Source: Sedimentibacter sp. zth1 (lineage in GTDB: Bacteria; Bacillota; Clostridia; Tissierellales; Sedimentibacteraceae). From it: a DNA stretch of 64,000 bases. The notes under the pieces were generated by a model, which searched no databases, was not told where the DNA came from, and was given only the letters and a program-made list of their open reading frames with translations. Below are positions 52,417 to 64,000 of the stretch, one piece after another. The number at the start of each line of letters is the position of its first letter. Positions within the stretch are counted from its first letter, which is position 1. Both the position numbers and the translations under genes were made by a program. The stretch covers positions 1,984,001 through 2,048,000 of the forward strand of contig NZ_CP071445.1 of assembly GCF_017352195.1 (NCBI RefSeq), written 5' to 3'.

Positions 52417-54162
52417 TTACATAGCACTTTGTTCTAACATATATTTCTCCCAAAGATATGTAAAATACCCTTTATTGTTTATTAAATTATCAAGCTCTCC
52501 ATGCTCTACAATATCACCATTATGAAACACATATATATAGTCAAACAATTTTAATAAATGCAATCTATGAAGAACACTTATAACACATCTATCACTTAAG
52601 CTTTCAAAAACTCTTGTGTAGACTTTTAGCTCTGTTGCGGCATCTAAACTACCTGTTGGTTCATCAAATAAAACTATACTACTATCTTTTACAGAAAAAA
52701 GACCTCTTGCTAATGCTAATCTCTGCTTTTCACCACCAGATAAATTTACTCCATTTTCATTAATTAATGAATTAACACCCTTAGGTAACTTTTCTATAAC
52801 TTCATCAAAAGCTGATTGCCATAAAACCCTTTGTATATCAGCATCAGTTGATTTAATACCCATATTTATATTGTACAATACAGTATTATCAAATATCTCT
52901 GGTTCCTGTGGAATTAAAGTTGTTATATTTGTTAATGATTTTAATTCATATTTGTAATTATCATCAACTATAACATTACAATTTGGAACGTCATATATAC
53001 CTCTTATAATTTTAAGCATTGTACTTTTACCAGAACCACTATCACCAACAAAAGCAATCTTTTTGCCCTTTTCTAAACATATTTGTAAATTATGCAAAAC
53101 AATTTCACTGTTATCATATGAAAAATCAACCGTTCTTATGAGCAATTTATTCCATTTTAGTGGTATTTGTCTAGTTTCCATGTATGCAATATTATTACTA
53201 AGATCAATAATTGATAAAACAGAATCAAAATCATTTCTCCAATGTATAACCTTCTCATAATCTCCAACATAAAATCCAAATGCTTCCATCAACTGAGAAA
53301 GATATTGAAAAATTGCTGTAACTAAACCAAGCATAACAATATTACCATTTTTAGTTTTATCATAAATATAATAAAAAATTAAGCCCACATTTAAAAGCAT
53401 AACTAGCAAAGAATAAACATGACATTTTATCTGTGTAAATTTATTCTCATTTACTAAATGAATAAAATTATCTTTAAATTTGGTTTCTAGGTCATATCCA
53501 ATACATTTACCAAGTCTTAATAAAATAATAGTTGTTATATTGCCAATTCCATCCTGCAAAGTCGCTGAAATTTTATGAAAACCCTCATTAAGCATTCTAT
53601 ATTCTGGTACTGATAAGTTATATATTCGTTTTGTTGAAAAAACTAGTATTAATCCAACAAACACTGCTATAATAGCTACAACTGGTGAAATAAACCACAA
53701 AACAATAATAGAGCCAACAAAATTAACAATAGTCATAATATAATTATACATAGATTGTCCAAAACAATACAAAGCATCAGAAGCTTTGTTAACACGACTT
53801 ACTATATTGCCGGAATGATGTTCATTGTGCCAGCCAAGAGGTAAAGATTGTAATAAATTATAAGTCTTTAATACATATCTTTTTTTTACATCATAAGCAA
53901 CATATAATTCAATAAAACGTGCGCTACGATGAAAAATTTCAAAAACATAAAAACAAGCAACATAAATAAATAACCAAAATACAACTTTTTCCATCATATT
54001 ATTATTTTGATATTGCAATGTATTTATAATCATAGCAAAAACCATAGGTTGTGCTACTGTAGCAACTATTGAAATAATGTGCATAATTGAATACACAAAT
54101 ATCTTCCATTTCTCTTTACCTGAATAGGCAATAAGTTTTTTTAACATATAAATAAAATCCAT
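52417..54162 (-). CDS. ABC exporter, fused membrane and ATPase domains
   Basis: A 581-residue half-transporter that would work as a dimer. Six transmembrane helices (about 15-300) precede a nucleotide-binding domain (about 335-575). That domain has Walker A GDSGSGKST, signature LSGGEKQRLALARGLF, Walker B SIVLFDEPTGSLD and the H-loop VLHRLHLL. Such exporters extrude lipids, peptides or drugs. The start ATG 54162 follows GGAGG; an earlier ATG at 54177 overlaps that site. The gene follows the GyrI-like gene at a distance of about 170 bases and may be independent. Confidence 0.9.
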   Translation of the reverse strand: MDFIYMLKKLIAYSGKEKWKIFVYSIMHIISIVATVAQPMVFAMIINTLQYQNNNMMEKVVFWLFIYVACFYVFEIFHRSARFIELYVAYDVKKRYVLKTYNLLQSLPLGWHNEHHSGNIVSRVNKASDALYCFGQSMYNYIMTIVNFVGSIIVLWFISPVVAIIAVFVGLILVFSTKRIYNLSVPEYRMLNEGFHKISATLQDGIGNITTIILLRLGKCIGYDLETKFKDNFIHLVNENKFTQIKCHVYSLLVMLLNVGLIFYYIYDKTKNGNIVMLGLVTAIFQYLSQLMEAFGFYVGDYEKVIHWRNDFDSVLSIIDLSNNIAYMETRQIPLKWNKLLIRTVDFSYDNSEIVLHNLQICLEKGKKIAFVGDSGSGKSTMLKIIRGIYDVPNCNVIVDDNYKYELKSLTNITTLIPQEPEIFDNTVLYNINMGIKSTDADIQRVLWQSAFDEVIEKLPKGVNSLINENGVNLSGGEKQRLALARGLFSVKDSSIVLFDEPTGSLDAATELKVYTRVFESLSDRCVISVLHRLHLLKLFDYIYVFHNGDIVEHGELDNLINNKGYFTYLWEKYMLEQSAM

Positions 54163-54335
54163 ATTTTTCTCCTCCATATAATGTTATTGTATTTTTTTAT
54201 TATATGAAGGATGGTGACGCTCGAATTCTATTTAAGTATCAATCACGTCATAATTTATTTAACATTTTCATTTAATTTTCTCCTTGTAGTTATTTTCAGT
54301 AATACACATTAAAACACATTTTTAGTTTCATTAAT

Positions 54336-54809
54336 TTATAAACATTTAATTGGAAAGAACAAATATAACTGACCATTTTCCTCTGGACAGTTAAAATCAA
54401 ATACAGCACCCGCTAAATTCAATTTGTTTTCATTCATATATTGCAAAACTCCATTAAATGTTTTATTATAATCCTCTTCAACTTTAGCATACAAATATTC
54501 AAAAGATGGAACAGTCCATTTTACCCAATTTTCAGGAGGTGTTGCGTTATTGTCAGTCTGTACTCCTGCTAAATACAATCCTTCACTAAAATTATTATCC
54601 CACGGTTTAAAAGTTCTTGAAAAATCGCTCATTAATCCCCATATTCCAACAATGTTTCCATTAGCATCTTTCTTTGCTAACGCTTTAACTTCATCGAAAT
54701 GCGAGTTTGCATCAACCCACAAGTTTTCAACAAAATTGTTACCATCATTTGTTGAGCCTTCTTTTCCAATTACCGAAAATGATTGCATAATACATTTTTT
54801 TATTTCCAT
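54336..54809 (-). CDS. GyrI-like/AraC effector-binding domain protein
   Basis: A 157-residue stand-alone effector-binding domain. It contains VIGKEG, GIWGLMSDF, YLAGVQTD and FEYLYAKVE, and ends with LYLFFPIKC, a pattern typical of the SHS2-derived GyrI/Rob C-terminal fold. Such proteins bind hydrophobic compounds and in some cases hydrolyse them. There is no DNA-binding domain. It may buffer or sense drugs exported by the neighbouring ABC transporter, but that is inference. Confidence 0.75.
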   Translation of the reverse strand: MEIKKCIMQSFSVIGKEGSTNDGNNFVENLWVDANSHFDEVKALAKKDANGNIVGIWGLMSDFSRTFKPWDNNFSEGLYLAGVQTDNNATPPENWVKWTVPSFEYLYAKVEEDYNKTFNGVLQYMNENKLNLAGAVFDFNCPEENGQLYLFFPIKCL

Positions 54810-55037
54810 AATTATATCTCCTTAATACATTAATGTAATTCACACGCAAAATACTATTGGTACTATGCTTATAACACAAAATTTTTATTATTAATAACTG
54901 GAATAAATATTGTATCACATCAACGTTTCATAGCACTTGCATACCAATCTTCTAAACACGCTCTGTCATGCTGACAGCCAATATATAATAAAACACTTAA
55001 AGCGAAAAATGGTTCAATATATAAAATGTAAATTAAC

Positions 55038-55574
55038 TTATATATCAAATATTAAATTATTAATATTTGATTTTTCTATGATGATATTTACTGTTTCTTT
55101 TAAATTAAATTTATTTGTATCAATTTTTTCACCGCTAATTTTGCTATCAAACGCTTGAAAACATCTATCGATTTGCTGTTCAGCCCAAGAATTTTCTTCT
55201 TCTCCTCTATTTAGTAACCGTTTTTTTATTATCTCTTTATCAGCATCTAAAATATAGTGATGAATATCTACACCATCATTGATAAGCTTACCTATTATTT
55301 GATTGTAACAGTCTATATTTACAATGGTCATTGGTATAATTATAACTCCATTATAATTGTCGTTCATGTGTTTGATTATTTGATAATTTATATTACGCCA
55401 TATTTCAATGTTTTGAAAATCACCCTTGCGTTTCATTTTGCCAGGGAAATTATCCCATAAAAAATAACCAACTTGTTCAGGGTCATATATATGTGAAAAC
55501 TCAATTTTTTGATGTAATAAATCAGCTATTGTACTTTTCCCACTACCAAAAGCACCATTTAACCATATAATCAT
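55038..55574 (-). CDS. P-loop AAA/TmrB-like kinase-fold protein
   Basis: A 178-residue ATP-binding protein. Walker A is LNGAFGSGKST at about 5-15, followed by HIYDPEQVGYFLWDN, and a C-terminal LID-like KKRLLNRGEEEN segment. This resembles TmrB (tunicamycin resistance) and small phosphotransferases of the shikimate/gluconate kinase fold. A kinase of a small molecule or an antibiotic-binding ATPase are both possible. Downstream (54920-55037) a different frame still reads IGCQHDRACLEDWYASAMKR to a stop, perhaps a relic of another gene. Confidence 0.75.
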   Translation of the reverse strand: MIIWLNGAFGSGKSTIADLLHQKIEFSHIYDPEQVGYFLWDNFPGKMKRKGDFQNIEIWRNINYQIIKHMNDNYNGVIIIPMTIVNIDCYNQIIGKLINDGVDIHHYILDADKEIIKKRLLNRGEEENSWAEQQIDRCFQAFDSKISGEKIDTNKFNLKETVNIIIEKSNINNLIFDI

Positions 55575-55603
55575 TTTGTCACCTCATAAAGAATTAAGAA
55601 TAT

Positions 55604-56464
55604 TTATTTTATGCTTGGGTAAAATGCTTTTTCTGACGTTGTGAAAATATCTATTGAAAGCGGATATTTTATTTGAAAAATAGTTGGTTTATCTGCTCCA
55701 ACTGGAACAAGCATAACCCTTGTACAAACTCTATTACCATTACTATCGCTTTTATAAAATCCAACATCAAAATAATAAAGATATTGATATACCCATTTAT
55801 AATAAGCTTCATCTGTCATGTCACTGTAACTCTTACCTACTCTGATTAAATTTAGATTCTTATCTAAATTTCCTAGTGATAATGCAAACTCAACTCCATT
55901 TAATGGCAAATCACCTTTCATAGGTATAATGCCAAACTGTCCATCAATAAATACCCATTTATCATAATCTTTCAAATATGCTTCTACTACAATATGTCCA
56001 GCGCCATATTCACGAGTTTCAACATCAAAAGTTTTCAATCCAACATTTCTTGTAGGTATACCAAGTGCATTAAGGCAACCATAAACAACAACACTATATT
56101 CAACACATCTATATCGTTTACCTTTTTCAATTACTTGATCTAATATATAAATTGGATCAGATTTTTCTGGCTGATTATTACCATCATGTTCCCATAATTC
56201 TGAAACCCATTTTGTTATAGCCTGAACTTTTTCAAAATCTGTATTACAACCTAAAATAATAGAATCAAGTTTATATTTTGAACGTAACATTACAAGGTAC
56301 TCATCTGAATACGGACACCATTGTACATTTTCCATAATGTTATATTCATCTTGAGTATATCTCATTTCTGTAGAACTTGTACCATTACTACACGAACAGC
56401 AAGTAAAACAAATAGTAATTATCAAAAATATACATAACTTTATAGTTCTTTGCTTATTATTCAT
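55604..56464 (-). CDS. Transglutaminase-like lipoprotein
   Basis: A 286-residue exported protein. The N-terminal hydrophobic stretch ends in CSCS-type cysteines (ITICFTCCSC), so lipid attachment is likely, although several Cys are candidates. The transglutaminase-like core has Cys in KGKRYRCVEYSVVVYG, His in YGAGHIVVEAYL and Asp in KWVFIDGQFG, the full papain-like triad. These proteins are peptidases or crosslinkers of the cell surface. I choose ATG 56464 behind AAGGGG; an in-frame ATG at 56485 overlaps the end of the upstream gene. Unknown substrate. Confidence 0.75.
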   Translation of the reverse strand: MNNKQRTIKLCIFLIITICFTCCSCSNGTSSTEMRYTQDEYNIMENVQWCPYSDEYLVMLRSKYKLDSIILGCNTDFEKVQAITKWVSELWEHDGNNQPEKSDPIYILDQVIEKGKRYRCVEYSVVVYGCLNALGIPTRNVGLKTFDVETREYGAGHIVVEAYLKDYDKWVFIDGQFGIIPMKGDLPLNGVEFALSLGNLDKNLNLIRVGKSYSDMTDEAYYKWVYQYLYYFDVGFYKSDSNGNRVCTRVMLVPVGADKPTIFQIKYPLSIDIFTTSEKAFYPSIK

Positions 56465-56481
56465 ACTCTTTCCCCTTCTAA

Positions 56482-57135
56482 TCATTTTATTAACTCCTTA
56501 TACACTTTTGCCCATGCTATTTGTGTGCTAATTTCTTTGTTAAGGGGTGGCTTTTTTTCAATATTATTCGCTTTAATAAATTTAGATACTTTGTCTATAA
56601 ACTCTTTTGGCTCTTGAATTGCAATATTTTTCATTGATATAAAACCACAGTCATAATATAGACTTGCACGAATATCCTTTATACCCGGTAAACGTGAAAT
56701 GTCAGACAAGCAAACTGCTCTCTCAATTACACATTCTGATACTTCAGTAGCATGTGCAACTAACTTACGCTTTTTAGAAGTATCGCACCTATATATTATA
56801 TCTTTTGTTGATATAATACCATAATCCATTAATTTTGTTATATTATCTACCCCAATTGAAGTATATTCTTTGATTTTCCTAGTCTTATATTTATAGAAAG
56901 ATAAAAATGATGCCAGTAAATCTACAATTGATTTGTCTAGCATTGTATTGCTTACAAGAAGTTCCGAATTGTTAGCATACTGTTCAAAAAAGTTTTCAGA
57001 AGTCAAAATATTAGCCATAATTAAGGCTCTTATTATTTTTTCTTTGTTTTCTATTAATTTAGAAAATCTACTTAACGTTGTATTTTTATTTAATACAATA
57101 GCCAAATTTTCAATATCAATATTATCTAGTTCCAT
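56482..57135 (-). CDS. DUF4332-like helix-hairpin-helix protein
   Basis: A 217-residue soluble, mostly helical protein. The C-terminal part, CLSDISRLPGIKDIRASLYY followed by DCGFISMKNIA, matches the DUF4332 pattern of a helix-hairpin-helix 'L..IpGI....a..L...G' repeat that can bind nucleic acid or mediate protein contacts. The rest is not recognised. Its stop overlaps the extended frame of the transglutaminase-like gene, so the two are co-transcribed. Confidence 0.55.
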   Translation of the reverse strand: MELDNIDIENLAIVLNKNTTLSRFSKLIENKEKIIRALIMANILTSENFFEQYANNSELLVSNTMLDKSIVDLLASFLSFYKYKTRKIKEYTSIGVDNITKLMDYGIISTKDIIYRCDTSKKRKLVAHATEVSECVIERAVCLSDISRLPGIKDIRASLYYDCGFISMKNIAIQEPKEFIDKVSKFIKANNIEKKPPLNKEISTQIAWAKVYKELIK

Positions 57136-57179
57136 ATTCTCCTCTTTTCAAAAGTTAATCACATACTACTTTATTACAC

Positions 57180-57968
57180 CTATAATCCATATTCATTCAA
57201 AAAATGCAAAATTGAATTTATTTCATTCGTTTGGTCATCTCTTAGTTCATAAAGTCTTGCTGCTGAAATAACAATCATCCATTCTTCTATATCTGATTCC
57301 GTTATTCTCATATGACTAAGATATTCGACAGATGCTTGTCTTTTTATTTGAAGTAATGCTTTTGCATCAGGAACTCCATCTGGTACGGGTGTTTTTTCTA
57401 TCAAATAAACAGTTCTTGCTATATCATATAACCTATTGCCTTTACAAATATCCATAAAATCAATAACATAATTTTTATTATCACCGACAAGAATATTTCC
57501 ATAGTGAAAATCACCATGACAAAATCCATCGTCATCTGGAAGTTTACTTAATATAGTAAGAAGCTTTGCTTTAATATCTGGTGAAATAAAACATGTATTT
57601 GTTATATTATAATGCAATACTGATTTCGCACTAACAGCATTTGGTAGTTTCTTTTTCAGTAGTTCCTTATGTATTTTAGCTAAAATAGCAGTATTCTTTT
57701 CAATATTTAATGTTTCTAACAAAATTTTATCTAATGGTATTCCAACTATTTTGTCATAAATAATGCCATATCTTTCATCAATGTCAACGAGCTCATAACT
57801 TTTAGGAGTGCAAATATCTAGTGTATTTATGAGTTTTGAATTGTTATATTCCTTAACAACAGAATCATAAAAATATCCCCTATTAAATAATTTAACTACT
57901 TTATTATCACCAATATCATACACTTCTGCAGTGTTCCCCGTTCCTATTAAACAATCAAGTGAATACAT
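57180..57968 (-). CDS. Aminoglycoside phosphotransferase-like kinase
   Basis: A 262-residue protein kinase-like phosphotransferase. The glycine loop is IGTGNTAEVYDIG, the catalytic loop FCHGDFHYGNILVG near residue 168, and the metal site VIDFMDICKG. It belongs to the APH/choline-kinase branch. Resistance to an aminoglycoside is possible but small-metabolite or homoserine-type substrates are just as likely. The start ATG 57968 follows AGGAGG; the frame extends to 58034 without a good ribosome site. It heads the leftward accessory run. Confidence 0.78.
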   Translation of the reverse strand: MYSLDCLIGTGNTAEVYDIGDNKVVKLFNRGYFYDSVVKEYNNSKLINTLDICTPKSYELVDIDERYGIIYDKIVGIPLDKILLETLNIEKNTAILAKIHKELLKKKLPNAVSAKSVLHYNITNTCFISPDIKAKLLTILSKLPDDDGFCHGDFHYGNILVGDNKNYVIDFMDICKGNRLYDIARTVYLIEKTPVPDGVPDAKALLQIKRQASVEYLSHMRITESDIEEWMIVISAARLYELRDDQTNEINSILHFLNEYGL

Positions 57969-58146
57969 ATGTACAGTCCTCCTATCTCTAAATAAAACTA
58001 CTCTATTGCATATGTTTACTATTACTTTCATCAATTAAAATATATATCATGTAATTAAATACATGATATATATTTATATTCTTAATATTATCAGAATTGC
58101 TAATTTAATACAATGAATAATATATATATATTTTCCAAAAACGTCA

Positions 58147-58175
58147 TGGCAAAAAACTAAAATATGTATTATAAT
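58147..58175 (+). promoter_or_regulatory. Probable promoter of the radical SAM/peptide operon
   Basis: TATAAT at 58170-58175 with a weak -35 (ATGGCA, 18 bases upstream). It lies about 50 bases before the radical SAM start. The intergenic region is shared with the divergent APH-like gene. Confidence 0.45.
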
Positions 58176-58225
58176 GAATTTAAAGTTATATTTGTTAATT
58201 ATGTTAACTTAAGGAGATTATTGTT

Positions 58226-59194
58226 GTGTCTTTAGAAGATGATATGTTAAGTGTAAAAAGTGGTAAAGCGATAAATCCACTACAAGTTGAGGTCCATTTG
58301 ACGAGCGCTTGTAATCATGATTGTAAATGGTGTATCTACAAAGGCATTAGAAATACTAAAAATACATCTATGACATATGATAGTGCAATTACACTAATGG
58401 ACAGTTTAAAGAAATCTAGTTGTGATACTGTATTGTTTAGTGGAGGTGGAGAACCTCTAATGCATAAAAACGCTGAACAAATAATATGCTATGCTCATAG
58501 TTTAAAAATGAATTGTGTGCTAATAACAAATGGTGCATTACTTAAAAATGTTAATTTAGCAAGGCTAACTAAAGCACTAACTGTCATAAGAATAAGTTTT
58601 GATTCATATGATGAGAATTCTTTTCATTTAGTTCATCGTCCTAAAAACAAAACAGATTCTTTTGAAGAATTGTGTACAAGTGTAAAAAAAATAGTAGAAC
58701 TAAAAAGCGAAAATACACTGGTTATTTTATCTTATATATTGGATGAAGAAAGTATATCTGGTGTTAATAAATTTGTTGAACTGTCAATAAATTTAGGTGT
58801 TGATGAAGTTGATATAAAAACAGATCATAATCTCTCATATACTAAACGAAAAGTACTTTCGGATCAAGCTAGGGATGTTTTAAAATGCTTTCAAGATAAT
58901 ATAATAATTAGTTTTGATCCAGTTAAGCATAGAACAAATTACATTAAAAAGCCTTGGCTTAATTTATGCTATCAATGCATGATCGAATTTGATGGACTGA
59001 TTTATCCATGTTGCCATAAAATAGAGAAAGAATTTATAATTGGAGATATTAATAAAGAAGATTTTGTAAATATATGGTATAGCGATAAACATCAGTACAT
59101 GATCAATAAATATTACAGTGAAAAATTATCATGCCCAACATGTTCAGATTCAAGTATTACTAAAATGATTAGACGTATTATTAATAAAATGTAA
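58226..59194 (+). CDS. Radical SAM/SPASM-type enzyme
   Basis: A 322-residue enzyme. The radical SAM cluster motif is CNHDCKWC (Cys29, 33 and 36), followed by VLFSGGGEPLMH as the GGE motif and RISFDSYDE. The C-terminal SPASM-like region has Cys in LCYQCMIEF, IYPCCHK and SCPTCSDS, giving auxiliary Fe-S sites. Enzymes of this class modify ribosomal peptides (thioether or C-C crosslinks, epimerisation) or mature enzymes. Start is GTG 58226 behind AAGGAG. It opens the operon that includes a 38-residue peptide 90 bases downstream, which makes peptide modification the leading idea. Confidence 0.85.
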   Translation: MSLEDDMLSVKSGKAINPLQVEVHLTSACNHDCKWCIYKGIRNTKNTSMTYDSAITLMDSLKKSSCDTVLFSGGGEPLMHKNAEQIICYAHSLKMNCVLITNGALLKNVNLARLTKALTVIRISFDSYDENSFHLVHRPKNKTDSFEELCTSVKKIVELKSENTLVILSYILDEESISGVNKFVELSINLGVDEVDIKTDHNLSYTKRKVLSDQARDVLKCFQDNIIISFDPVKHRTNYIKKPWLNLCYQCMIEFDGLIYPCCHKIEKEFIIGDINKEDFVNIWYSDKHQYMINKYYSEKLSCPTCSDSSITKMIRRIINKM

Positions 59195-59284
59195 GCCAAT
59201 AATTTACCATGCAGTTAAATCTATATTATTTATGTGTTTTTAGGTTTTGCTCATGGCTTATTAATAAATTTAAGGAGGATAATT

Positions 59285-59401
59285 ATGGGTAATCATTGTG
59301 TTGTAAAACAAAAAACTCTAGCTGAATTTGAAAAAAAATTAAATGAGTCTAAAAGAGCTACAAAAAAAGCAACTAAAATTATAGCTAAAAAAGAAAAATA
59401 G
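59285..59401 (+). CDS. 38-residue Lys-rich peptide, candidate RiPP precursor
   Basis: A 38-codon frame with ATG 59285 and a very strong AAGGAGG site (59272-59278). It begins MGNHCVVKQKTLAEFEKKLN and ends with an Ala/Lys-rich stretch (ATKKATKIIAKKEK). There is a single Cys (residue 5) and no Ser/Thr/Cys-rich classic core. The position between a radical SAM enzyme and a phosphotransferase-like enzyme, with a peptidase and an ABC transporter further on, is that of a RiPP precursor. It could also be a helical regulatory or RNA-binding peptide. A large stem-loop follows it. Confidence 0.6.
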   Translation: MGNHCVVKQKTLAEFEKKLNESKRATKKATKIIAKKEK

Positions 59402-59438
59402 TAAAGACATCTATAATTACTATCAATTAAGCATAATT

Positions 59439-59477
59439 GCATAAACGATTATTATAACAAACAATAATCGTTTATGC
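59439..59477 (+). promoter_or_regulatory. 15-bp perfect stem-loop after the peptide gene
   Basis: GCATAAACGATTATT (59439-59453) pairs perfectly with AATAATCGTTTATGC (59463-59477) around a 9-base loop. No T-run follows. It would stabilise or partly end the peptide message, raising peptide output over the enzymes. It also buries the ATG at 59474, which argues for a later start of the next gene. Confidence 0.75.
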
Positions 59478-59515
59478 TTAATGCTAATAAAAAATATCTT
59501 ATTAAGAGGTATACA

Positions 59516-60334
59516 GTGTTTTTAGAATATAAAAAAAACAAGTCATTTGTATGTGATTTTCAATTAATTTATGATACGGATAATAAATTGCATTTAGATT
59601 TTTATGCATATGGTCTTTTAAAAGAACCATGTGTTTTAAATTTAAAAGCAAAGTATAAGTTATTAGATTATGGTTTAATTGAAATATCTAAGAAAAAATA
59701 TAAGCTAATCAGTAAGAAAATGAATAAAATAACAAAAAATTTAAATTATATGAAAAATATCACTACAAAAATGAAAAATTCAATATATAGATTGATAGAG
59801 TCAAACATCGAGTTTGAAAGATTAATTGAAAGTGGTATTTATGATTACAATGTTTGCAAAAAATGCTTTGATTGTGTTACTGATGTCATGGCATATAGGC
59901 GAATAGCAGATTTATCGGGAGAATATTATTCAAAATCTGTTTGCAAAGAACGTTATTCTAAAATTGGAATACCATCATACTTAATTACGCTAAATGAAAA
60001 CAAACAAAAAATAAATGATTTAAATGATATCAAAATCTTTATAAAAGAATATTCATATTTAAGTACATTCAATATAGACAATAAAAAGTATGAGGATATA
60101 AATAATTATACACTAAATGTCAATGCACAAGGAAACCTTAAACCAATCAATATACCATTTGATAAAAGTAAATGTAAAAATAATATTGAAGAAATAGTAT
60201 ATAGCTTGTCATGGTATAGTGAAATGAGACATATATATCAGCTTAGAACTTTGAGAAATTTCAAGTTATTTATGGAAGCTAAAAACATGGATATTTATAA
60301 TACTGATATAAGGATGATTTTAAATTATGTTTAA
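59516..60334 (+). CDS. Unrecognised Cys-containing protein of the peptide operon
   Basis: A soluble, Lys-rich protein of 272 residues if it starts at GTG 59516, which has AAGAGG six bases ahead. The alternative ATG 59474 (286 residues) lies inside the stem-loop and lacks a ribosome site. A distinctive block reads VCKKCFDCVTDVMAYRRIAD and is followed by YSKSVCKERYSKIGIPSYL near the middle, with clustered Cys that could bind metal. I recognise no family. It overlaps the PEP-synthase-like gene by eight bases. One option is that it supplies the substrate-binding part missing from that enzyme. Confidence 0.65.
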   Translation: MFLEYKKNKSFVCDFQLIYDTDNKLHLDFYAYGLLKEPCVLNLKAKYKLLDYGLIEISKKKYKLISKKMNKITKNLNYMKNITTKMKNSIYRLIESNIEFERLIESGIYDYNVCKKCFDCVTDVMAYRRIADLSGEYYSKSVCKERYSKIGIPSYLITLNENKQKINDLNDIKIFIKEYSYLSTFNIDNKKYEDINNYTLNVNAQGNLKPINIPFDKSKCKNNIEEIVYSLSWYSEMRHIYQLRTLRNFKLFMEAKNMDIYNTDIRMILNYV

Positions 60335-61487
60335 ATTTTTAAAAGATGTAGAATTTAATGATATAAAAGCAGTAGGAAAAAAGGCTTATAATTGTAGCAT
60401 AATGATAAAAAACAATATAAATACACCTGATGGATTTGTTATTTATGGAAAACTAAATGTGAGTGACTTTAAGGTAGTTAAACGGTTTACGAATAATGAT
60501 GTGTTATATGCCGTTAGATCATCTATGGGAAATGAAGACAATACTGATGTAAGCTGTGCTGGGAAATATTTATCATTTTTAGGATTAAAGAAAAACGAAA
60601 TTAAGTATGCAGTAAAGGAAATATATAAACATGCTTATGATAGTAAAGATAAATGTGTATTGGTACAACCACTTATTTGTTCAGAAGTTTCAGGAGTTGT
60701 TTTCACTAAGAATCCTATAACCAATAATGGGTTCCTAATAAATTCAGTTTTAGGTATAGGAGAAAATGTTGTTTCAGGTTGTATTACGCCTGATGAATAT
60801 GAAGTAATAGATAATAACATTAATTTAAAAAATACTCAAAAAAACGTGATATTTACATATGAACAAAAAGAAGAAATTGGTCGTACCAAACGCTTTAATG
60901 GCATAAGGGCACGGGTAGTTATAGAAAATAAGAATAAGCTTATTTTAAGTGTTAACTATCTTGACAGATATAAACCTACATTAAATGATATGCAAATAGA
61001 AAAATTAATAGAAGATTGTGAGAAAATTAAACGTATATTTAAATGTGAGCAGGATATAGAATTTGCAATAAAGGATAATACTATATATTATTTGCAAGCA
61101 AGACCTATAACTTCAATCTCAAAAAACATTACTAATGACACATTTAAGCAAAAGGGTATCCCATTAATTGGTCAAGGAGCTTCGATGGGTACATTTAAAG
61201 GCGAAGCCGTAAAAATTGATTACGGAGTACCAGTTAATAGAAACATTGATTTTAAAAATATGATTGTTGTGCTTGATGAGCTTTATCCAGAACTAATATA
61301 TAGCTTAAACAATATTGGAGCATTAGTTACTGCTAAGGGTGGCATATTATCACATGCGGCAATAGTTGCAAGAGAAAGGAATATACCCTGTGTTACAGGA
61401 TTGGATGACAAAATAGATAAAATAGAAAGTGGAATGCAACTTTACGTTGATGCTAATAATGGAGAGGTGTTTATTTGTGATGCTTAA
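60327..61487 (+). CDS. PEP-synthase-like phosphotransferase (ATP-grasp plus His swivel domain)
   Basis: A 386-residue protein. The N-terminal PEP/pyruvate-binding ATP-grasp region (about 1-265) shows YAVRSSMGNEDNTDVSCAGKY near 66-86 (read as separate conserved blocks RSS and AGKY), GVVFTKNP and a final IYYLQARPITS. The C-terminal swivel domain (about 280-386) has GGILSHAAIVARERNIP with the phospho-carrier His343. The large PEP-binding barrel of PEP synthase is absent, so it resembles rifampin phosphotransferase, which moves the beta-phosphate of ATP to a small molecule. Here the acceptor could be the peptide or another intermediate. Confidence 0.8.
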   Translation: MFKFLKDVEFNDIKAVGKKAYNCSIMIKNNINTPDGFVIYGKLNVSDFKVVKRFTNNDVLYAVRSSMGNEDNTDVSCAGKYLSFLGLKKNEIKYAVKEIYKHAYDSKDKCVLVQPLICSEVSGVVFTKNPITNNGFLINSVLGIGENVVSGCITPDEYEVIDNNINLKNTQKNVIFTYEQKEEIGRTKRFNGIRARVVIENKNKLILSVNYLDRYKPTLNDMQIEKLIEDCEKIKRIFKCEQDIEFAIKDNTIYYLQARPITSISKNITNDTFKQKGIPLIGQGASMGTFKGEAVKIDYGVPVNRNIDFKNMIVVLDELYPELIYSLNNIGALVTAKGGILSHAAIVARERNIPCVTGLDDKIDKIESGMQLYVDANNGEVFICDA

Positions 61488-62484
61488 TAACTATATTAAA
61501 AATGTTGATAATAGTTATATAGATAGTCGTTTAATATATTTAAACAACCAGCAAGATATAAAAAAAATAATTTTAAATTGCGATTTAGAACCTGACTATG
61601 AAAGCTTAACCCTAACAGGCACAATGATATGTAGCGATACCTTTGTTTATCCTTTTGCGGCTGGGTTTGATTTAGGATGTGGACTAGGCTTGTTTCTAAC
61701 TGATTTAAACAAGAATGACATAAAACAATTAAAGTTGGAAGAAACAAGCCCTTTTGGCATTAGAAAAAGCAAATATACAAATCATTCTAATTCTAATAAT
61801 CAAACTGTCATAGGTAAATCAATTATGAATGAGTATTTAGGACAAGTAGAAACAGGAAACCACTTTGTAGAAATAAGGTTGCTTAATAATAAAATTTGTA
61901 TTCTAGTACATAGCGGATTGCCTAAAAGAATAAAAAATTTGTTTGCTATGGAGCTTATAGATTTAGTAAAAAAATATAATCCGAATATTATGCAGTCTGA
62001 AAATTCTTATGAATTCAAATTAAATAAAAATAGCTTTGAAGCTATCAATTTAATTAAAGCAATTGAAGAGGCAAACAATTTTACTCGCATAAACAGACAA
62101 TATATAGCTAAAAAAATCGTTAAAAGCATGAATGGAAAAATTATAGATTATATAGATGCTTCTCATGAATATATAAAATTTAACAACGAAAATATTATTC
62201 ATTGCCACGGTACTCAAGAGTATGTAAAAAAGCTTAATAATTATATAGCTGTTGTGTTGAGTGGAAGTTCATCGCCTAATTATGTTGTAAAAAAGAATAA
62301 TGATATTGAATATATAAATCATGGTACAATATTAAAATCTATTAATTGTAATGGTGAAAGAAATTATTCATCATTTGAAGAATTATCAGATGATAATGCT
62401 ACAAATTTTAGGTCATTGTATAAGCTAATACCTCTATATTGCTGTAAAAGGAGAGCAAAAAAGTATGTATATGAAGTATATTGA
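61480..62484 (+). CDS. Divergent RtcB-like protein
   Basis: A 334-residue protein with the ordered motifs of the RtcB RNA ligase fold: GFDLGCGLG (cf. DIGCG), QVETGNHFVEIR (cf. GGGNHFIEI), ILVHSGLPKR (cf. HSGSRG), DASHEYI (cf. HNY) and YINHGTI (cf. HGAGR). The metal-binding Cys, Asn-His and three further His are kept. The guanylate-contacting Ser-Arg-Gly and the final Ala-Gly-Arg are lost, and it is shorter than canonical RtcB (about 400-480). RtcB joins RNA ends using GTP and manganese. This relative may act on another substrate. Start ATG 61480 has GGAGAGG upstream and overlaps the previous gene. Confidence 0.7.
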   Translation: MLNNYIKNVDNSYIDSRLIYLNNQQDIKKIILNCDLEPDYESLTLTGTMICSDTFVYPFAAGFDLGCGLGLFLTDLNKNDIKQLKLEETSPFGIRKSKYTNHSNSNNQTVIGKSIMNEYLGQVETGNHFVEIRLLNNKICILVHSGLPKRIKNLFAMELIDLVKKYNPNIMQSENSYEFKLNKNSFEAINLIKAIEEANNFTRINRQYIAKKIVKSMNGKIIDYIDASHEYIKFNNENIIHCHGTQEYVKKLNNYIAVVLSGSSSPNYVVKKNNDIEYINHGTILKSINCNGERNYSSFEELSDDNATNFRSLYKLIPLYCCKRRAKKYVYEVY

Positions 62485-63598
62485 AAATAAAAATTTAAAT
62501 TTATTAAGTATAAACTTTATAATACCAGTTGGTAATAAAACCATTTTTAATAATAAAATAAACAAATTTGCACACTTAATCGAACATCTTATTTTTCATG
62601 GCAGTTCAAAATACACACAATATGAACTGCTATTTAAAATTGAAGAACTTGGAGGAATTTTTAATGCTCAAACTAATGATTATTATACAGAATTATATTT
62701 AAGAATTACAGAAGATAATGTTATAGAAGCAATTGAACTTATTTTAGATGCCCTTATACACTTTGATATTAGTGAAGATGATTATAATAGCGAAGTAGAA
62801 ATAATAAAAATAGAAGACAAGCAAGCAAATTCAAATGTTGATTTTATTGTAGATACAATGTTAACAAAATGTCTTAATCATGTTAAAAATGATAATATTC
62901 CTTCATTTAATGATATCATAAAAATATATAAAAATATATATAACAATTGGTCATTAGTTATAATGGGAAAACTTGAAAAAACTAAAATAGAAAAGATTAG
63001 AAATCTCGTCAATGATGAAGGAGAACCAAAATACAGTTTTTCTGATAATTTGCTATATAAACATTTAGATTTTAAATACAAATTTATAAATAAAGCCTTA
63101 GACAAAAATGATAATCTATTTTTATATGTTTTTCGTTGCAGTGATAAAACAGATACACTGACAATGAAGCTAATTAAAAATATATATGTAAATGGTTTAT
63201 CTTCTATATTATATGATAAACTTGTTTCGGATTTTAATTATTGCTACAACATAAATTTTAGAGATTATAGCGTACATAATAACTTTTTTATTATATATTT
63301 TACACATGATAATAATTCAAATTTATTATTGAGTGATGCAAAAAAATTATTTGTTGATGTATTTAACATCAAATACATAAACTCATTAAAAAGCACAGAT
63401 ATAAAAAGAGCTGTTAATATGGTTATAACAGAAGCTTATTTGAAATTCGAACGAAGCAGTGCCCAAATTAATGATACAATAGACAATTATTTATTTGAGA
63501 GGGATGTTACAATAACAAATAATTATTTAGATAAATTAAAAAGTATGAGTGAAGAAGATATAAAATTATTATTGGCATTAGCTATAGGGAGAGAGTAA
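62465..63598 (+). CDS. M16-family zinc metallopeptidase
   Basis: A 377-residue peptidase with the inverted zinc motif HLIEH (His37, Glu40, His41) and a downstream acidic ligand in NSEVEIIKIEDKQ. The paired-repeat layout ends about residue 375, so it is one M16 half-barrel unit. M16 enzymes cut unstructured peptides of limited length and remove leader sequences in several peptide natural-product pathways (PqqF and relatives). It overlaps the RtcB-like gene by 20 bases. A GGAG site precedes; ATG 62465 or 62471 may serve as start. Confidence 0.85.
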   Translation: MYMKYIENKNLNLLSINFIIPVGNKTIFNNKINKFAHLIEHLIFHGSSKYTQYELLFKIEELGGIFNAQTNDYYTELYLRITEDNVIEAIELILDALIHFDISEDDYNSEVEIIKIEDKQANSNVDFIVDTMLTKCLNHVKNDNIPSFNDIIKIYKNIYNNWSLVIMGKLEKTKIEKIRNLVNDEGEPKYSFSDNLLYKHLDFKYKFINKALDKNDNLFLYVFRCSDKTDTLTMKLIKNIYVNGLSSILYDKLVSDFNYCYNINFRDYSVHNNFFIIYFTHDNNSNLLLSDAKKLFVDVFNIKYINSLKSTDIKRAVNMVITEAYLKFERSSAQINDTIDNYLFERDVTITNNYLDKLKSMSEEDIKLLLALAIGRE

Positions 63599-63600
63599 TC

Positions 63601-64000
63601 ATGATAAAAATTGAAGGAGTAAGTAAGTCTTACGGTAAAAAGGAAAAAAAATACGTACTTAATAATATTAATTTATCTATCCCAGACAATGAAGTTGTAG
63701 CTTTACTTGGACACAATGGTTCAGGTAAATCTACACTAATTAAGTGCTTAACAGGTATTTTAAAACCTACTAATGGAAAAATTAGCATTGACAATTTCGA
63801 TACTTTTAAGTATAGAAAAAAGCTAATAAGAAATATGGGAATAATTTTCAATCAAAAATCTTCATTTATTACAGATTTAAGTGTTTACGATAATTTGCTT
63901 TTTTTTAAAGCCATATACGAAATAAGCGATGAAAAATTTAAAAAAATGATAAATTTGATAGATAAGTATATTGAAATTAAAAAATTGTTTGAAAATCCTT
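63601..64000 (+). CDS. ABC transporter ATPase, N-terminal part (runs off window)
   Basis: At least 133 residues from ATG 63601, two bases after the peptidase stop and with GGGAGAG as ribosome site. Walker A is LLGHNGSGKSTLIK at about 35-48 and the Q-loop lies in NMGIIFNQKSSF. The style matches CcmA/DrrA-type exporter ATPases, which pair with an ABC-2 permease. It would export, or give immunity to, the product of this operon. The rest lies beyond the window. Confidence 0.88.
   Translation, partial: MIKIEGVSKSYGKKEKKYVLNNINLSIPDNEVVALLGHNGSGKSTLIKCLTGILKPTNGKISIDNFDTFKYRKKLIRNMGIIFNQKSSFITDLSVYDNLLFFKAIYEISDEKFKKMINLIDKYIEIKKLFENP

Follow-up and report, generated by a model that had tools for sequence, protein, structure and literature searches.

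The subtilosin A gene set (sboA-albABCDEFG) brings together in one operon a radical S-adenosylmethionine (SAM) enzyme with a SPASM domain, a short precursor peptide, an M16-type peptidase, and an ATP-binding cassette (ABC) transporter. A short peptide, a radical SAM enzyme, and an M16 peptidase also recur as PqqA, PqqE, and PqqF in the pyrroloquinoline quinone (PQQ) pathway, and microcin C uses the ThiF-like enzyme MccB. Here, we describe an operon at the end of a 64,000-nucleotide stretch (the window; positions 1984001-2048000) of the AT-rich genome of Sedimentibacter sp. zth1, a single contig of 3.13 Mb. The operon combines these components with a kinase resembling phosphoenolpyruvate (PEP) synthase, a divergent RtcB-like protein, and a gene of no known family, termed gene C. 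A radical SAM enzyme, a short translated peptide, an M16 peptidase, and an ABC-2 exporter encoded together are best explained, with reasonable probability, as a pathway to a ribosomally synthesized and post-translationally modified peptide (RiPP). Our reading of the whole locus, an orphan RiPP-type operon with a split dikinase and RtcB-like phosphate chemistry, is more tentative and stands somewhat short of even confidence.

Subtilosin A and other sactipeptide clusters share with this locus the co-occurrence of a radical SAM/SPASM enzyme, a short precursor, an M16-type peptidase, and an ABC transporter, and AlbA and AlbEF of subtilosin are cited in PMC10885120. The two systems nevertheless differ: subtilosin A biosynthesis involves no kinase related to pyruvate phosphate dikinase (PPDK), RtcB-like protein, or gene C, whereas the Sedimentibacter operon has a single M16 gene and a peptide with one Cys.

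A nine-gene operon

The features of the locus, in window coordinates, are as follows.

58146-58175, + strand: promoter-like site (ATGGCA-18-TATAAT) ahead of the operon, matching 10 of 12 consensus positions, 50 bases before the first gene
58226-59194, + strand: radical SAM enzyme with a SPASM/twitch-type C-terminus, 322 residues (Pfam, NCBIfam)
59272-59401, + strand: candidate precursor peptide with its ribosome site, 38 residues, open reading frame 59285-59401, MGNHCVVKQKTLAEFEKKLNESKRATKKATKIIAKKEK (codon score, AGGAGG ribosome site)
59439-59477, + strand: perfect 15-bp stem with a 9-base loop, between the peptide gene and gene C (RNA fold)
59516-60334, + strand: gene C, 272 residues, no known family (GTG start at 59516, coding-like codon score)
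60327-61487, + strand: PPDK/PEP-synthase-like kinase with only the ATP-grasp and His swivel domains, 386 residues (Pfam, PDB matches)
61480-62484 (start approximate), + strand: divergent RtcB-like protein, nearest to RtcB2/PRK09588, 334 residues (Pfam RtcB 1e-11, alignments)
62465-63598, + strand: M16 peptidase, 377 residues (Pfam Peptidase_M16 1.9e-14)
63601-64000 (window end), + strand: ABC exporter ATPase, 311 residues in full (profile search, source genome)

Open reading frames on the forward strand show six genes running rightward in the window, plus the first part of a seventh, each at the location and strand reported by a first-pass annotation of this DNA. The window end cuts the ATPase frame, which the source genome completes to 311 residues (to window-equivalent 64536) and follows with two ABC2_membrane_6 permeases. 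Reading past the window end thus gives an operon of nine genes spanning ~7.8 kb (genome 2042226-2050062), in the order radical SAM enzyme, 38-residue peptide, gene C, PPDK/PEP-synthase-like kinase, RtcB-like protein, M16 peptidase, ABC ATPase, and the two permeases. The proposal that these frames constitute one operon is therefore upheld and extended, as every junction between gene C and the ABC gene is either an overlap or a 2-base gap: gene C and the kinase share 8 bases, the kinase and the RtcB-like gene about 8-11 bases, and the latter and the M16 gene about 14-20 bases, with 2 bases separating the M16 and ABC genes. Larger gaps flank the peptide gene, with 90 bases following the radical SAM gene and ~114 bases, including the hairpin, preceding gene C. 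The promoter-like site is only suggestive because such sites occur at chance frequency across this AT-rich region. An Rfam search of window positions 57000-64000 returned no match. The G+C content of gene C and the M16 gene is 22-23%, vs 28% for the window; this lower value and the restriction of the RtcB-like gene to this genome in the family-level search are compatible with acquisition, without proving it.

The 38-residue peptide and its hairpin

The short peptide with a strong ribosome site reported in the first-pass annotation withstood closer inspection. Its start has the arrangement AGGAGG-6-ATG. With both strands counted, the 64 kb contain only four AGGAGG-N3-8-ATG sites, this one included, and two of the four begin long genes. 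Under a codon model trained on the other long genes of the window, the frame scores 0.57 bits per codon, which exceeds 70% of true coding stretches and is matched by just 0.1% of 2057 non-coding 38-codon stretches. On these signals, the frame is very probably translated, and this predicted translation supplies the operon with the short precursor gene that a RiPP pathway calls for. The peptide sequence occurs once in the genome.

Between the peptide gene and gene C, the segment 59395-59520 folds at -29 kcal/mol (z -5.8), a stability equaled by 0 of 200 shuffled sequences. The hairpin scores as terminator-like on the reverse strand; on the forward strand, the missing T-run after the stem sets it apart from standard terminators. 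It may instead set the stoichiometry of precursor to enzymes.

The peptide contains no Tyr, one Ser, three Thr, and a single Cys at residue 5, and resembles a Lys/Glu-rich helix lacking a typical core. Sactipeptides use several core Cys residues as thioether donors, and the lone Cys does not fit that pattern. The helix-like composition also agrees with a non-RiPP function, in which the operon would make or modify a compound other than a peptide, either a metabolite or a cell-surface component, and its 38-residue product would be a small accessory or leader protein. Radical SAM enzymes of equally low similarity are indeed found in loci with sugar-nucleotide genes. We regard such a function as unlikely, given the M16 peptidase, the strong ribosome site of the small frame next to a radical SAM/SPASM enzyme, and the hairpin that separates the peptide gene from the enzymes.

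Radical SAM enzyme, peptidase, and exporter

The radical SAM/SPASM, M16, and ABC proteins had been taken as parts of a RiPP pathway, and Pfam and NCBIfam place all three in those families, as in pathways of the subtilosin or PQQ type. The radical SAM enzyme matches Radical_SAM (7.7e-19) and SPASM (6.7e-9), carries CNHDCKWC at residue 29 and GGGEP at residue 73, and has six Cys residues in its C-terminal part (C248, C251, C262, C263, C303, and C306). The M16 peptidase retains an intact zinc motif, with HLIEH at residues 37-41 and Glu at 110, 112, and 117, ~75 residues further on, in keeping with the HxxEH plus distal Glu pattern of the family. Its identity to the housekeeping M16 proteins of related genomes is 22-27%, a distant relationship.

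These three proteins also bear on a PQQ- or mycofactocin-like alternative. There, radical SAM cross-linking and M16 excision, as with PqqF, would carve a small molecule out of the peptide scaffold; the kinase and RtcB-like protein would then phosphorylate or nucleotidylate that molecule, which would be exported or act as a cofactor or signal. The short peptide, radical SAM enzyme, and M16 peptidase correspond to the PqqA/E/F set, the best profile for the ATPase is PQQ_ABC_ATP (4.3e-47, marginally ahead of drrA), and weak profile similarity links the radical SAM enzyme to PqqE (1.5e-13) and the peptidase to PqqF (3e-7). Those similarities, however, fall far below the equivalog cut-offs. The operon lacks PqqB, PqqC, and PqqD, the peptide lacks the Glu-x3-Tyr of PqqA-type precursors, having no Tyr at all, and the locus adds a kinase, an RtcB-like protein, and two dedicated export permeases. 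We therefore assign this alternative a low probability.

A PEP-synthase-like kinase without an acceptor domain

The kinase matches PPDK_N (1.3e-34) and PEP-utilizers (3.1e-19) and has intact AVRSS, QARP, and TAKGGILSH motifs. Its ATP-grasp motifs and T/SxxGGxxxH swivel His place it in the ATP-grasp/His-swivel dikinase superfamily. The PDB matches end at about residue 482 of the 817-residue PEP synthase, after the swivel domain, and the C-terminal pyruvate/PEP-binding barrel that would define a PEP synthase or PPDK is not present. Lacking this barrel, the kinase must have its acceptor held elsewhere.

The one obvious candidate for an acceptor subunit is gene C, which at its 3' end runs into the start of the kinase gene. 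The GTG at 59516, preceded by AAGAGG, is a better start than 59474 and yields the 272 residues of the first-pass annotation, whose assignment of this gene to no known family agrees with our finding of no Pfam or NCBIfam match above cut-off. From its genomic context, gene C is a candidate substrate-binding or acceptor subunit. A comparison with the central acceptor domain of PEP-synthase-like proteins gave no significant match, and the candidacy is kept on genomic context. We also considered gene C as a RiPP recognition element (RRE), given three strands followed by helices in a single-sequence AlphaFold2 model; at a predicted local distance difference test (pLDDT) score of 34, the model was unusable and was set aside.

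Two-component dikinases have precedent in HpeHI, CreHI, and PpsAB; in HpeHI, the ATP-grasp domain forms one protein and the swivel and substrate domains form the other (PMC12167813). With gene C as acceptor subunit, the present locus would resemble all three in dividing ATP-grasp/His-swivel phosphotransfer over two proteins and would differ in where the division falls: the swivel domain is fused to the acceptor domain in those systems but to the ATP-grasp domain here. Separately, several family relatives carry multiple PEP-synthase- or RPH-like dikinases, one of these genomes having six matching stretches; this expansion possibly represents antibiotic or small-molecule kinases.

A divergent RtcB-like protein

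RtcB joins a phosphate monoester to a hydroxyl group via a His-GMP intermediate (mechanism summarized in PMC9223846). An alignment with 23 RtcB proteins covers the entire RtcB-like protein (hhalign E 1.1e-17; profile hidden Markov model score, 82 bits), which keeps the metal and guanylation positions D65 and C68 (GFDLGCG), H128 (GNHF), H145 (VHSG), H229 (SHEY), and H281 (NHG). H281 aligns to the guanylated His of RtcB. A three-row MAFFT alignment places the last region elsewhere, with Cys at the nucleophile position; we prefer H281 because the deeper alignment and hhalign agree. Among RNA ligase features, the metal ligands and guanylated His are thus present, while the RKGA, HGAGR, and N-terminal DVHxG motifs are lost and scores against curated families reach 64-76 bits relative to cut-offs of 272-407. 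The protein is an RtcB by descent that is possibly still nucleotidylating.

Among named families, RtcB2/PRK09588 and TIGR03073, the PrfH-linked RNA ligases, lie closest. Full-length alignment and the conserved Asp, Cys, and four His connect the protein to this group, from which it departs in its missing motifs, a shortened C-terminal region, and the absence of PrfH. In another genome from this order (L010:1468-3200), an RtcB2 gene directly precedes a PrfH-like gene with a GGQ-type release-factor motif, a probable ribosome-rescue operon.

RtcB2-PrfH guards against a toxin that cleaves rRNA (PMC9223846). This role, together with the RtcB2-type kinship, favors a RiPP of the subtilosin or epipeptide kind, with the RtcB-like protein serving self-protection or RNA repair. 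The radical SAM enzyme would then install a thioether or epimerize a residue, the M16 peptidase would remove the leader, and the ABC proteins would provide export or immunity, in line with the use of AlbA and the M16-type AlbE/F for subtilosin. We judge this improbable: the RtcB-like protein has diverged greatly from RNA ligases and is encoded in overlapping frames between the kinase and the peptidase, and the peptide has only its one Cys.

Distribution and neighboring genes

No orthologue of the RtcB-like protein was found in the family (27 genomes), the order (249 genomes), or a phylum sample (398 genomes), where homologs were distant or lacking; within the family, the gene is confined to this genome. 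Gene C had no relative in a class sample (391 genomes), plasmids, or phages, nor in the phylum sample. No orthologous cluster was recovered with the radical SAM enzyme in the class sample at E<1e-25, or with the M16 peptidase in the order (248 genomes). Pattern scans of contig collections, which detect close relatives only, found no cluster in GTDB 220 or viral contigs using the RtcB-like protein, radical SAM enzyme, kinase, and a designed two-row radical SAM alignment; a pattern for the peptide start gave a single match in the viral collection (L058). As the class and phylum were searched in samples, and the reach of the GTDB scans is limited to close relatives, absence elsewhere is not proven.

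Had these genes been independently scattered in related genomes, a shared pathway would have been doubtful; no such scatter was seen, and homologs there are distant housekeeping or stand-alone genes, such as the RtcB2 adjoining a PrfH-like gene. M16 neighborhoods in relatives, considered as RiPP loci, proved to be YmxG-type genes beside or after pnp, and the neighborhoods of three of the radical SAM matches on plasmids (Streptomyces, Brachyspira, and Paenibacillus) were unrelated.

Upstream, an APH-like phosphotransferase gene (57180-58034, - strand) diverges from the operon and may be unrelated or a resistance or self-protection gene. Also beside the operon, a leftward run (52417-57135, - strand) encodes an ABC exporter, an AAA kinase, a transglutaminase-like protein whose start resembles that of a lipoprotein, and a DUF4332 protein.

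A proposed pathway

In the reading we favor, the 38-residue peptide would be the precursor, modified first by the radical SAM enzyme. Gene C and the ATP-grasp/His protein would form a two-component dikinase, in which the swivel His would take up phosphate from ATP and hand it on to a hydroxyl or comparable acceptor group that gene C holds. The RtcB-like protein, which descends from metalloenzymes that nucleotidylate a His, would use a nucleotide (GTP in RtcB proper) to activate the transferred phosphate. The outcome would be a nucleotidylated peptide or, if a second nucleophile then attacks, a phosphodiester or phosphoramidate bond. Trimming of the peptide would fall to the M16 peptidase, and secretion of the product to the ABC-2 exporter. 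We infer the peptide as substrate, also for the kinase and the RtcB-like protein, gene C as acceptor subunit, and the order of steps; the product and its chemistry are predictions drawn from one genome. The pairing is chemically logical because RtcB-type enzymes require a phosphate monoester and a hydroxyl group, and dikinases make phosphate monoesters. Should the proposed RtcB-like step take place, the product would share with microcin C7-type peptide-nucleotides a nucleotide on a ribosomal peptide, reached here with no MccB.

Speaking for this proposal are the gene overlaps; the rare strong ribosome site, coding-like codons, and stable hairpin of the peptide gene; the presence of radical SAM, M16, and ABC-2 components with intact motifs; a kinase that is complete but for its acceptor domain, with gene C overlapping its start and with split dikinases as precedent; and the full-length alignment and retained metal and guanylation residues of the RtcB-like protein. 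Several observations weigh against it. No RRE was found, the radical SAM enzyme included, known acceptor domains show no detectable resemblance to gene C (hhalign probability <1%), and loss of the RtcB motifs means that the nucleotide chemistry may be changed or gone. The peptide, devoid of Tyr and poor in Ser and Thr, with its Cys near the N-terminus, shows no clear core, and no second instance of the cluster provides co-conservation. On balance, the most novel form of the proposal is doubtful: a new RiPP class in which a split dikinase phosphorylates the peptide and a repurposed RtcB then nucleotidylates it or makes a join through the phosphate, so that the product bears a nucleotide or phosphodiester.

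The first-pass annotation had called the PEP-synthase-like and RtcB-like proteins not known from any described RiPP class, and in the open-access literature, to which our search was confined, we likewise found no link of RtcB or PEP-synthase-like enzymes with RiPPs. Its interpretation of the locus as a peptide-modification operon is plausible and in part borne out, and the operon is a candidate new RiPP class represented by one genome, with a phosphate or nucleotide on the peptide as a prediction.

Should the proposal prove false, the locus would still be an unusual orphan cluster containing a gene of no known family. If true, RtcB chemistry, in which a His-bound nucleotide activates a phosphate for joining to a hydroxyl group, would have moved to a peptide from its RNA setting, with a dikinase serving as a peptide-tailoring enzyme; to our knowledge, neither has been described in RiPPs. 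The operon would then offer a route to phosphate-bridged or nucleotide-bearing peptides.

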